A stretch of DNA of 38,140 nucleotides from Acidobacteriaceae bacterium (GTDB lineage Bacteria; Acidobacteriota; Terriglobia; Terriglobales; Acidobacteriaceae), in NCBI GenBank assembly GCA_030041955.1, contig JASIAO010000067.1, forward strand, positions 1 to 38,140. The letters are read 5' to 3'. A program made the translations under genes and the position numbers. Under the pieces are notes generated by a model. That model was given only the letters and a program-made list of their open reading frames with translations. It was not told where the DNA came from and searched no databases. Shown piece by piece: positions 25,829-30,508 of the stretch. Numbering within the stretch: the first letter of the stretch is position 1; each line of letters starts with the position of its first letter.

Positions 25829-26569
25829 TTGCGCATCTCGCTCTTTATCACGTGCTATAACGACGCGCTCTTCCCCGCAACGGGCCAGGCCGTCGTGCGC
25901 GTCCTCGAGCGCCTCGGCCACACCATCGACTTCAACTCCGCCCAAACCTGCTGTGGCCAGATGCACTGGAATACCGGCTACCTCCGCGAAGCTGTTCCTA
26001 TCATCCGTCACTTCGTCTCGACCTTTCGCGACGCCGAAACGATCTGCATCCCCTCATCCTCCTGCGTCGCCATGATCCGCGACCACTACCCCAAAGCCGC
26101 CCGCGAATCCGGCGATCCCGACTTCATCGCCGACGTCGACGCTCTTCTCCCGCGTGTCTTTGAATTCTCCGAGCTGCTCGTCAACCGTCTCGGCGTCGAA
26201 GACGTCGGCGCAACCTTCCCGCATCGCGTCACCTACCACGCCAGTTGCCACTCGCTGCGCAGCCTGCGCCTCGGCGACATTCCCTTCCGCCTCCTGCGCC
26301 AGGTGCGCAGCCTCACCCTCTGCGATCTCGAAGGTCTCGACCAGTGCTGCGGCTTCGGCGGCACTTTCGCCATCAAGAACGCCGACGTTTCCTCGGCCAT
26401 GCTCGCCGACAAGACTCGCTGCGTCTTCAATACCGGCGCCGAAGTCTGCACCGCCGTCGACAACTCCTGCCTCATGCACCTCTACGGCGCGCTCCATCGC
26501 CAGCGCACGCCCCTCCGCACTGCGCACCTCGCGGAAATCCTCGCCTCCGAAGCAGAGGGCGCCTCATGA
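25829..26569 (+). CDS. lutA: L-lactate utilization (Fe-S) protein LutA
   Basis: RISLFITCYNDALFPATGQAVVRVLERLG, QTCCGQMHWNTGY, CCGFGGTFAIKNADVSSAMLADK; TTG start preceded by GAGGA. Confidence 0.92.
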   Translation: MRISLFITCYNDALFPATGQAVVRVLERLGHTIDFNSAQTCCGQMHWNTGYLREAVPIIRHFVSTFRDAETICIPSSSCVAMIRDHYPKAARESGDPDFIADVDALLPRVFEFSELLVNRLGVEDVGATFPHRVTYHASCHSLRSLRLGDIPFRLLRQVRSLTLCDLEGLDQCCGFGGTFAIKNADVSSAMLADKTRCVFNTGAEVCTAVDNSCLMHLYGALHRQRTPLRTAHLAEILASEAEGAS

Positions 26570-27993
26570 CCGAGCCCCGCTCCGCCGATTTTCCCCACGC
26601 CGCTCGCGAGGTCCTTCAGGACTCGCAATTGCGCCGCAACGTCGCGCACGCCACCGACGTCATCCGCAACAAGCGCGATCGCGTCGTCGCCGAATGTTCC
26701 TCCTGGCAGGACCTCCGCGACGCCGGCAGCGCCATCCGCCAGCATGTCCTGCGCCATTTAGATCAGTATCTGTTACAGTTTGAATCCGCCTGCACCCAGG
26801 CCGGTGGCCAGGTTCACTGGGCCGCCGATGCGGCCGACGCCAACCGCATCCTCCTCGATCTCCTCGTCCGCCACAACGCCCGCGAGATCGTCAAGATCAA
26901 GTCGATGACCACGGAAGAAATCGGCCTCAACCGATCGCTCGCGGCTCACGGCATTGCCGCCGTCGAAACCGACCTCGCCGAATTGATCATCCAGCTCGGC
27001 CGCGACCAGCCCTCACACATCGTCGTCCCTGCGCTGCACAAGAATCGCCGGCAGATTCGCGACCTCTTCCAGCGCGAAATGCACCTCGACTCCCTCGGCG
27101 ACACCGCCGAAGACCTCACTGCCGCCGCCCGCCAGTATTTGCGGCAAAAGTTTTTCTCCGCTTCTGTAGCAGTCAGTGGCGCAAATTTCCTCATCGCGGA
27201 AACCGGCAGCGTCGTCATCGTCGAATCCGAGGGCAACGGCCGCATGTGTCTCACCCTCCCGCGCGTCCTCGTCTCCATCGCCGGCATCGAGAAAGTCATC
27301 CCCCGCTATCGCGATCTCGACGTCTTCCTCCAAACCCTCCCCCGCTCCGCCACCGGCGAGCGCATGAACCCCTACAACTCCATCTGGACCGGCGTCCACT
27401 CCGGCGACGGCCCCCAGGAGTTCCACGTCATCCTTCTCGACAACGGCCGCAGCCGCATCCTCCGCGACCCCGAAGCGCAGCAAACCCTCAAATGCATTCG
27501 CTGCGGAGCCTGCCAGAACGTCTGCCCCGTCTACCGTCAAACCGGCGGCCACGCCTATCGCTCCGTCTACGCCGGCCCCATCGGCGCCATCCTCACGCCG
27601 CAACTGCACCGGCTCCAGGAGGGAGCGTCGCTCCCGTACGCATCATCGCTCTGCGGCGCGTGCTACGAAGTCTGCCCCGTTAAAATCGACATCCCCGAAG
27701 TCCTCATTCACCTGCGCGGCCAGGTCGTCCGCAAACAGCAGGCGACACTCACCGGAAAACTCGGCGCATGGAACCTCGGCATGCAACTCGCCGCGCAGAT
27801 CTTCGTCAGTGGCGATCGCCTCGCCCTCGCGGAAACCCTCGGCCGCCTCGGCCAGCGCCCCTTCGTCCGCTCCAGCGGCTTCATCGAGCGCCTCCCGTTC
27901 ATGTTCTCCGGCTGGACCCGGTTCCGCGACCTCGCTCCCCTCCCCGCCGAATCCTTCCGCGAGTGGTGGGCCAAACGGAGCACTACCCCATGA
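26566..27993 (+). CDS. lutB: L-lactate utilization iron-sulfur protein LutB
   Basis: ATGA overlap with lutA; VKIKSMTTEEIGLN; ferredoxin motifs CIRCGACQNVCPVYRQTGGHAY and CGACYEVCPVKIDIPE. Confidence 0.93.
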   Translation: MTEPRSADFPHAAREVLQDSQLRRNVAHATDVIRNKRDRVVAECSSWQDLRDAGSAIRQHVLRHLDQYLLQFESACTQAGGQVHWAADAADANRILLDLLVRHNAREIVKIKSMTTEEIGLNRSLAAHGIAAVETDLAELIIQLGRDQPSHIVVPALHKNRRQIRDLFQREMHLDSLGDTAEDLTAAARQYLRQKFFSASVAVSGANFLIAETGSVVIVESEGNGRMCLTLPRVLVSIAGIEKVIPRYRDLDVFLQTLPRSATGERMNPYNSIWTGVHSGDGPQEFHVILLDNGRSRILRDPEAQQTLKCIRCGACQNVCPVYRQTGGHAYRSVYAGPIGAILTPQLHRLQEGASLPYASSLCGACYEVCPVKIDIPEVLIHLRGQVVRKQQATLTGKLGAWNLGMQLAAQIFVSGDRLALAETLGRLGQRPFVRSSGFIERLPFMFSGWTRFRDLAPLPAESFREWWAKRSTTP

Positions 27994-28649
27994 CCGCGCG
28001 CGACACCATCCTCCGCAGCATTCAGGAAAATCTCCGCGCCGCCGAACGTCTCGCCGGCCCAGGCCCAGGCCCCGGCTCCGGGGGCGACGATCTCATCTCC
28101 CGCCTCTATCGCGAAGCCGCGCCCCGTACCCCCGCCGACCGTCTCGCTCTCTTCGAGCACAACCTGCGCGACTACGAAGCCGGAGTCGCCTACGCATCCC
28201 CCAACACCATCGCCGAAGCCGTCGCCTGCTCGCTCGCCGCTCGATCTCTCACGCGCATCGCCATCCCTGGCGGCCTCCCCGCCGAGTGGCTTCCCTCCGG
28301 ATTTCTCTTCGAGCCGGCCGACGACTGCGATCCAACCGCGCTCGAAACCTTCCAGGGTGTCCTCACCGCCTGCACCCTCGCTATCGCCGAAACCGGCACC
28401 ATCGTCCTCCAATCCGCGCCCGGCCAGGGTCCGCGCCGCCTCTCGCTCGTCCCCGACTATCACCTGTGCGTCGTGTTCGATCGCCAGATCGTCGACACCG
28501 TTCCTGAAGCCTTCGTGCGCCTCGCCGCCAGCGCGACCCTGCCCACCACCTTCATCTCCGGCCCCTCGGCCACATCCGACATCGAAATGACCCGCGTCCG
28601 CGGCGTCCACGGCCCCCGCACCCTCGAAATCATCCTCGCCAAAAGCTGA
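27990..28649 (+). CDS. lutC: L-lactate utilization protein LutC
   Basis: ATGA overlap with lutB; ETGTIVLQSAPGQGPRRLSLVPDYHLCVV and TFISGPSATSDIEMTRVRGVHGPRTLEIIL. Confidence 0.92.
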   Translation: MTARDTILRSIQENLRAAERLAGPGPGPGSGGDDLISRLYREAAPRTPADRLALFEHNLRDYEAGVAYASPNTIAEAVACSLAARSLTRIAIPGGLPAEWLPSGFLFEPADDCDPTALETFQGVLTACTLAIAETGTIVLQSAPGQGPRRLSLVPDYHLCVVFDRQIVDTVPEAFVRLAASATLPTTFISGPSATSDIEMTRVRGVHGPRTLEIILAKS

Positions 28650-28825
28650 CTCCCGCCCCGCAATATCCTCCAAATCTCCCAATCTCCCAAAACTCGTCAA
28701 GAGTATGTGGAAAAATCTAAAGTAACAATCATTGATACGAAATAACTTCCGGGCCGCCGCTCCGCAACATATTTGGCAGGCCTATTCCTTCGGTTTGGTA
28801 TTCTGAACTTATAGGGTGAAAAACA

Positions 28826-28853
28826 AAAAGCCTCGCTCGCCGGCGAGGCTTTT
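28826..28853 (+). terminator. Intrinsic terminator
   Basis: AAAAGCCTCG-CTCGCCGG-CGAGGCTTTT followed by CTCTTT. Confidence 0.7.
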
Positions 28854-28870
28854 CTCTTTGCACACTGAAC

Positions 28871-28898
28871 CTGTTCCTTAAACCCTAACCCCTGTTTT
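28871..28898. repeat. Degenerate heptanucleotide tract
   Basis: CTGTTCC|TTAAACC|CTAACCC|CTGTTTT. Confidence 0.5.
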
Positions 28899-28943
28899 CA
28901 ACAACTTCCCGGGGGATGAGGGGGATGATTTTCGAGAACAGGG
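28890..28943. repeat. Copy 1 of a duplicated element with terminal inverted repeats
   Basis: CCCTGTTTTCAACAACTTCCCGGGGGATGAGGGGGATGATTTTCGAGAACAGGG; near-identical to 29085-29137. Confidence 0.85.
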
Positions 28944-28973
28944 CAAGGCAATCTATCCGACGAACGGCATTTA

Positions 28974-29001
28974 CTGATCACTGACATCTGATCGCTGACT
29001 A
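28974..29001. repeat. Degenerate heptanucleotide tract
   Basis: CTGATCA|CTGACAT|CTGATCG|CTGACTA. Confidence 0.7.
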
Positions 29002-29065
29002 CTCTTTTCCCGAGGTTCGCAAAACTGGAAGAGAACGAAGGCAACCGCGCTCTAGATGCCAACCG

Positions 29066-29093
29066 CTGACCTGTGATCCCTGATCCCTGTTTT
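29066..29093. repeat. Degenerate heptanucleotide tract
   Basis: CTGACCT|GTGATCC|CTGATCC|CTGTTTT; runs into copy 2 of the duplicated element. Confidence 0.6.
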
Positions 29094-29137
29094 CAATAAC
29101 TTGCCGGGGGATGAGGGGGATGATTTCGAAAACAGGG
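29085..29137. repeat. Copy 2 of a duplicated element with terminal inverted repeats
   Basis: CCCTGTTTTCAATAACTTGCCGGGGGATGAGGGGGATGATTTCGAAAACAGGG; perfect 10-bp termini CCCTGTTTTC/GAAAACAGGG. Confidence 0.85.
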
Positions 29138-29216
29138 AACGGCCATGCGGGATGGGTCTGCAACACCAGCGGAGCTGCCTTCGAGGACACCAACGAACCT
29201 GGGGCCTGCCAACTGG

Positions 29217-29462
29217 CTAACCCGCTGCCTGCTGAACCGCCAACGGCAATTGCTCCACCACAGCAATCCCCGCACGCCGCAGGAGCTGAAAAATGGTGGG
29301 GGGGGTGAGCCGGGTCGCGTCGAACTCCACGCGGATCGTCTTCCATTCCTCGTCAATCGAAATGCGCCGGATCCCGTACACCTCGCGCAAATTCCCGATC
29401 GCCGCCATCGCGGCCTCGGTCGGATGCCCCTCATAGCGGTACTGCACGTCGAGCTGCGTCAT
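29217..29462 (-). CDS. Small conserved protein, possibly HMA-like ferredoxin fold
   Basis: MTQLDVQYRYEGHPTEAAMAAIGNLREVYGIRRISIDEEWKTIRVEFDATRLTPPTIFQLLRRAGIAVVEQ; beta-alpha-beta-like pattern. Confidence 0.65.
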   Translation of the reverse strand: MTQLDVQYRYEGHPTEAAMAAIGNLREVYGIRRISIDEEWKTIRVEFDATRLTPPTIFQLLRRAGIAVVEQLPLAVQQAAG

Positions 29463-29499
29463 GCCTCGATGATACAGGGTGAGGAGGCAGGGGCTGGGG

Positions 29500-29555
29500 G
29501 GCTACCGGCTACCAGCTTCTCGCTACATCCTATACCCTATCCCCTACCCCCTAAG
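29500..29555. repeat. Degenerate heptanucleotide tract, 8 units, overlapping a stop codon
   Basis: GGCTACC|GGCTACC|AGCTTCT|CGCTACA|TCCTATA|CCCTATC|CCCTACC|CCCTAAG. Confidence 0.8.
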
Positions 29556-30173
29556 GAAAGGATTGGTCGCTCGTTCTTCTCCAATCGTCGTCTCCGGACC
29601 GTGCCCCGGAATCACCCGCGTCTCGTCCTCGAGCGTCATCAGCCGGTCGTGCAGCGACCGAAGGATCTGCCGCCCGTCGCCGCCCGGCAAATCTGTCCGC
29701 CCGATCGACCCGGCAAACAGCGTGTCGCCGGCCAGCAGCAGCCGCTCCGCCGCAAAATGCAGGCAGATGCTCCCCTGCGTGTGCCCAGGCGTGTGGATCA
29801 CCTGCGCGGGATGCGCCGCCAGCCCCACCACCATGGAATCCTCCGCGCTCTCGTCCGGCGGAGCCACCTCGGGCGTGGGTATTCCCAGCCATCCGGCCTG
29901 CACATCCATCATGCGCAACAGCGGCAAGTCTTTCTGATTCAGAAGAATAGGAGCACGAGTGGCCTGCTTCAGCTTCAGCGCCCCACCCACGTGGTCGATA
30001 TGCGCATGGGTCACTACAATCTGCTTCAGCGTGAGCCCCATCTCCGCCAGTCGCCTCAGGATATGCGGGATATTGTCTCCCGGATCGACCACCATCGCCT
30101 CTCCCGTCGCCTCATCGCCCGCCAGGATGCAGTTGCAGGCCAGCGGACCCACCGGAAATGTCTCAAGAATCAT
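29544..30173 (-). CDS. MBL-fold metallo-hydrolase (glyoxalase II-like)
   Basis: THAHIDHVGG, HTPGHTQGSICLH, LLAGDTLFAGSIGRTDLPGGD, VIPGHGPET motifs. Confidence 0.95.
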   Translation of the reverse strand: MILETFPVGPLACNCILAGDEATGEAMVVDPGDNIPHILRRLAEMGLTLKQIVVTHAHIDHVGGALKLKQATRAPILLNQKDLPLLRMMDVQAGWLGIPTPEVAPPDESAEDSMVVGLAAHPAQVIHTPGHTQGSICLHFAAERLLLAGDTLFAGSIGRTDLPGGDGRQILRSLHDRLMTLEDETRVIPGHGPETTIGEERATNPFLRG

Positions 30174-30331
30174 CGACTTAATTCTCCACCGGGAGGGGAA
30201 TTTCCCTCCGCCCCCTGACTTCAGAATAGGCTGCCGTCAGCCGTTAATCAGGAAAATCCTGGCATCCTGGTCAACCGCAGGGGCGCTCCCTGGCATCTTA
30301 TGTCACGATTTGACCTTTCGGGGTCCAGGCT

Positions 30332-30508
30332 ATGCATTCTGTCCCTTCTCTCGTTGACGTGCTCCGCAGCACCCTTAAGCGCCTCGAGCATAACGAGGAA
30401 TTGGCTCCCGACGATCCTCGGCTGGTCGAGTTGCGTCGCTCTCTCCTGCGCACCATCGCCGAGCTGGAATCACGGCGTCACGATCCGCACGAATCCTCCG
30501 TCGCCTGA
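30332..30508 (+). CDS. Small ORF (58 aa) absent from the supplied ORF track
   Basis: MHSVPSLVDVLRSTLKRLEHNEELAPDDPRLVELRRSLLRTIAELESRRHDPHESSVA; amphipathic, charged helical composition. Confidence 0.5.
   Translation: MHSVPSLVDVLRSTLKRLEHNEELAPDDPRLVELRRSLLRTIAELESRRHDPHESSVA

Follow-up and report, generated by a model that had tools for sequence, protein, structure and literature searches.

A degenerate heptanucleotide tract at the 3' end of an MBL-fold hydrolase gene belongs to a lineage-wide family of intergenic repeats in Terriglobales

The minus-strand tract of degenerate heptads at positions 29500..29555 of the window (the whole stretch of DNA that was analysed, 38,140 nucleotides of Acidobacteriaceae bacterium contig JASIAO010000067.1) is a real repeat and a member of a lineage-wide family. 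Probably, tandem tracts of this kind are born by slippage and tolerated in the spacers of Terriglobales, and the tract described here overran the C-terminus of an MBL-fold hydrolase.

Tandem structure of the tract and its overlap with the MBL-fold gene

The tract was characterized by its sequence, lag identity, unit profile and comparison with shuffles. All eight 7-mers without phase slip that had been described from the sequence alone could be recovered, and on the sense strand of the gene they read CTTAGGG, GGTAGGG, GATAGGG, TATAGGA, TGTAGCG, AGAAGCT, GGTAGCC and GGTAGCC. Identity at lag 7 was 35/49 (0.71), with 0.57 at lag 14 and 0.54 at lag 21, and ranged from 0.19 to 0.31 at the remaining lags tested. 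When lag-7 segments were scored with +1 for a match and -1 for a mismatch, the tract reached 23, the top score of the window, while the highest window maximum in 200 dinucleotide-preserving shuffles was 14. The tandem 7-nt period is thus beyond chance, which, with the mainly non-coding placement of such tracts described below, agrees with the heptanucleotide simple-sequence repeats of prokaryotes in the broad sense. Read outward from the gene, the first five units fit YAGSGNN loosely and later units drift to TAGCCGG. A DNA search of the genome identified no second copy of the exact tract. Two other heptad tracts are located nearby on the plus strand, one of CTGATCN type (CTGATCACTGACATCTGATCGCTGA) at 28974..28998 and a short one (ACCGCTGACCTGTGATCCCTGATCCCTG) with a lag-7 score of 11 at 29062..29089.

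The gene entered by the tract is located at 29544..30173 on the minus strand and encodes an MBL-fold hydrolase of 209 aa (PF00753, 7.6e-34). Its open reading frame ends in NPFLRG*, which confirmed that the TAG stop at 29544-29546 and the final residues L, R and G lie inside the tract. The tract is contained in the 81-nt spacer between this stop and a small conserved ORF (MTQLDVQYRYEG..., without Pfam match) at 29217..29462 on the minus strand. Genes were predicted by a simple caller based on codon usage and written for this analysis, and start positions are therefore approximate.

The equivalent spacer was compared among congeners, using one genome per species, so that the differences represent turnover at the species level. 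A tract was present in G005 (CCTGTAGCCGGTAGCCCGTAGC...), G009 carried ∼250 nt of a CTGTGCA-type tract and G008 a CCCTGCA-type tract close to the next start, while the spacers of five resolved congeners (G007, G010, G003, G006 and G002) contained none. Most relatives end their MBL protein in NPFLQPGVRL*, NPYLQPGVRL* or similar. The genome of the window (G000, NPFLRG*) and G005 (NPFLRSL*) lack this C-terminal end, and in both the stop lies within a tract. These differences are explained most simply by a tract that overran the gene end: it may have extended into, or been captured by, this end, so that the TAG of one unit now acts as the stop and the QPGVRL end of the relatives was lost, presumably in that order. 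Tracts overrunning gene ends would be a route for rewriting C-termini and stop codons.

Some further elements were observed around these spacers. In two other Acidobacteriaceae loci (L171:6637-6736 and L185:6636-6778), the spacer after the MBL gene carries an inverted TCGCTNN/AGCGANN heptad pair, whose stems are predicted to be strong (z -6.3 and -4.7, respectively) and in which the pyrimidine-rich arm comes first, the reverse of the polarity in the genus. Within the window, the genes for a LutB-like iron-sulfur protein and then a LUD-domain protein (PF02589) are located at 26245-28649, apparently a lactate-utilisation operon. The LUD-domain gene has a long downstream spacer, which contains a terminator-like hairpin of 12 pairs on the minus strand (28825-28854). 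A second dispersed repeat of ∼45-55 nt (TTTTCARCAACTTCCGGGGGATGATGGGGATGATTTT-like) is found at 28892-28945 and 29086-29137; a search that included it gave 17 genome matches, of which some were heptads, and several of its copies are close to heptad tracts.

A family of intergenic heptad tracts with outward polarity

Lag-7 repeats were surveyed in samples of 95-465 kb per genome, with contigs chosen without regard to content. Among short lags (<14) that are not multiples of three, lag 7 was the only one with a clear excess in the sampled contigs. At a score of at least 13, 13/14 tracts in G000 and 17/17 in the congener G009 were intergenic, unlike lag-6, -9 and -12 repeats, which were mostly coding. 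The comparison of intergenic DNA with shuffled controls, which had been suggested from the sequence alone, gave 13 tracts in G000 against 0.0 in shuffles at this score. As a background, about 30 tracts were counted in 246 gaps of G000 and 22 in 153 gaps of G009. The CTGATCN-type pattern occurred at 43 places in the genome, and its reversed control at 0. Aligned outward from the gene, the units follow the profile Y-A-G-(C/G)-G-N-N, with C or G about equally at position 4. Three CAGNGNN units followed by CAG were found in 117/200 genomes of the order, representing 29/57 genera; the controls for this pattern were near zero in most genomes, with appreciable counts in a few. Neighbouring units have a similarity of 0.75, which falls to 0.55 over a distance of eight units, as local duplication predicts.

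Enrichment at stop codons, also raised as a check, was evaluated by random placement of each tract within its own gap. Twenty-one tracts were located at most 12 nt from a stop codon where 9.5 were expected (p<=0.00025), and the same test gave no excess near start codons. When the 25 nt before starts were excluded, 44 tracts against 26.4 expected were found near stops in four pooled genomes (p<=0.0005), with a weaker excess in G000 alone (10 vs 7.3, p=0.10). The sequence-only reading had named the lack of a lag-7 excess near stops, or presence at a single locus, as what would speak against it; because of the intergenic excess and the enrichment near stops, neither is the case. In 29/34 tracts, the G-rich strand points away from the gene whose edge is nearest. 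Counted by pattern, this polarity was significant in G000 and G174, reached p=0.06 in G009 and was absent in G116. A strict register of the units to the stop codon was suggestive in G000 and weak or absent in the other genomes, and is therefore not claimed.

Most likely, the tracts would be created and reshaped by replication slippage or tandem duplication in steps of 7 nt, combined with point mutation. Reading frames would exclude them, and for this reason they would tend to occupy the free spacer that opens just past the stop codon.

From the sequence alone, the TAG repeated every 7 nt had also been taken to make the tract an all-frame translation stop cassette. The target tract indeed closes all three sense frames (antisense none), and the enrichment of tracts just past stops would fit such a function. 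However, this does not extend to the family: among 20 near-stop tracts, 6 close no frame, 4 close three frames in sense and 4 in antisense, compared to ∼2/20 all-frame closures expected from shuffles, and some common units, CAGGGTA among them, are free of stops in every frame. All-frame closure was therefore rejected as a general design, and a stop cassette is a very improbable explanation of the tracts.

RNA structure and persistence in operon spacers

It had been proposed that the G-runs of the target could form structure in mRNA. This did not hold: the target tract, which is single-armed, showed no folding beyond shuffles (z -0.27 and -0.22) and contains no canonical G3 quadruplex motif, on which ground a quadruplex at the target was rejected. 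For the family, an effect on mRNA or DNA through G-quadruplexes or another structure of G-rich nucleic acid appears highly unlikely. The outward G-rich strand in most tracts and the G4 formed in vitro by related Xanthomonas and Nostoc heptads (PMC4692102) point in this direction, but a canonical G3 motif is found in only 4/34 tracts. No Rfam family matched up to E=1 in 28600-30400, and a known RNA family at the target was dismissed accordingly.

That the tract serves to terminate or attenuate transcription at the MBL 3' end is extremely improbable. Although the tract sits right at the stop, it has no terminator-like site and no excess fold, and neither an intrinsic terminator, defined as a GC-rich hairpin with a T run behind it, nor an RNA hairpin was identified at the target. 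Moreover, the rplW-rplB spacer of the S10 operon holds equivalent tracts, and strong termination inside this operon would come at a cost, which argues against it.

Two spacers were followed in the genus, the one between rplW and rplB in the S10 operon and the one behind nuoD. At each of them a tract (lag-7 segment score of at least 10) was found in 9/10 other resolved congeners; both spacers were picked for their tract in G000, which biases this fraction upward, but hardly to 90%. The units differ between congeners at both spacers (GGGATCA, GGGTTTA, GCCGGTA, GGGTACA and GCTATTA, among others), and the length of the rplW-rplB spacer varies from 44 to 127 nt within the genus. Tract density was 2.8 per 10 kb at S10-operon loci (30 genomes), 1.1 at nuoD and 0.8 at MBL loci.

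In some gaps, two tracts in inverted orientation face each other. In G174, gaps with both arms exceeded independence (15 with both, 4 and 3 with a single arm, odds ratio 57, p=6e-9), and they were also above independence in G000 (p=0.009). Arms within one gap matched each other better than arms across gaps (p=0.0008 in G174 and p=0.0006 in G000). Strong folding was predicted for the gaps at L072, L070 and L084 (z -9.1, -7.3 and -5.8, respectively), to which the post-MBL stems at L171 and L185 described above can be added. At a score of at least 12, 39/45 tracts of G174 were located on two contigs carrying ribosomal-protein operons.

These results would fit selection of the heptad tracts, taken as a whole, for a role between cistrons: outward-reading arms at the two gene edges would pair as stem-loops and thereby insulate parts of a polycistronic mRNA or make them more stable, chiefly in ribosomal-protein operons. 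In this case, the target would represent half of such an element or a decayed copy. On the other hand, gaps with tracts fold no better overall than other gaps (p=0.20), the target spacer has no structure beyond chance, and the sampled tracts of G116 are scattered across all kinds of contig. In addition, template switching can also give inverted pairing without selection. Selection of this kind is considered possible but doubtful. The more specific proposal, that Terriglobales punctuate polycistronic operons, above all ribosomal-protein operons, with heptad-armed stem-loops, one arm just after the stop of the first gene and one before the next start, and keep this architecture while the sequence is continually rewritten, is rather unlikely. 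In the tuf-S10-spc operon of G174 (L286), facing heptad arms of differing sequence are found in 12/13 spacers of at least 60 nt; the loci concerned in this genome are L286 and L289.

Tolerated repeats generated by slippage are favoured by the intergenic bias, the falling similarity between units, the species turnover at the target spacer, the changed C-termini of G000 and G005, the varying length of the rplW-rplB spacer and the lack of a fold or G4 signal in the target tract, which suggest that this tract is nearly neutral. Pure neutrality is opposed by the outward polarity of the G-rich strand, the retention of tracts at the two operon spacers, the co-evolving inverted arms and the concentration in ribosomal-protein operons. 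With a common skeleton and polarity, changing sequence and some members in essential operons, the lineage represents a large natural experiment in which the slippage, selection and stem-loop models become separable.

Relation to known heptanucleotide repeats

Cyanobacteria contain short tandemly repeated repetitive (STRR) sequences, tandem heptanucleotides with several unit sequences per genome, and by this description the Terriglobales tracts can be likened to them. No literature on heptanucleotide or 7-bp repeats in Acidobacteria was found. The sequence-only reading knew of no named family of this design; this has to be revised, since heptad tracts near or over stop codons have been described in Xanthomonas and Nostoc (PMC4692102) and in Beggiatoaceae (PMC4679880), and the kind of repeat is therefore already known. 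What is new about the Terriglobales set is the YAGSGNN skeleton, the variety of unit sequences and the fact that most tracts are not of G4 type.

Rehm et al. (2015; PMC4692102) described heptamers of Xanthomonas (GGGNATC) and Nostoc (GGGGA(C/T)T) that are placed and oriented like the Terriglobales tracts. They too overlap stop codons and occur as inverted pairs, and their sequence is variable although their neighbours are stable. The G-rich strand in sense after stops and in antisense before starts, as defined by Rehm et al., was also observed here (29/34 outward). In contrast, the unit of the Terriglobales family has no conserved run of at least 3 G, and a capacity for G4 is not indicated, as most tracts carry no G4 motif (4/34 with motif, the target without). 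It further differs by the YAGSGNN skeleton, the many units per genome and the concentration in ribosomal-protein operons, the latter seen in one relative.

Direct TAACTGA repeats were reported in marine Beggiatoaceae, Cyanobacteria and Bacteroidetes (MacGregor, 2015; PMC4679880). Like the target tract, they are intergenic, provide stops in three frames in one direction and in some cases overlap the upstream stop; they differ in having one exact unit, mainly toward start codons, and no degenerate family. The exact TAACTGA unit was found neither in the target tract nor in the family profile. According to work cited in the same article, heptamers outnumber the other longer simple repeats in many bacterial genomes rich in repeats. 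The article also relays an earlier idea by which the length of 7 nt could stem from polymerase contact and slippage; polymerase contact length as the reason for a period of seven is a suggestion only. Among cyanobacterial heptanucleotides, those of Calothrix PCC7601 are cited in PMC4692102. In Geobacter metallireducens, tandem heptanucleotide elements (GGACCGG, MTYCTGA; PMC2700814) are likewise multicopy and partly intergenic, but consist of a fixed four or five units, also occur within genes and were proposed as regulatory sites.
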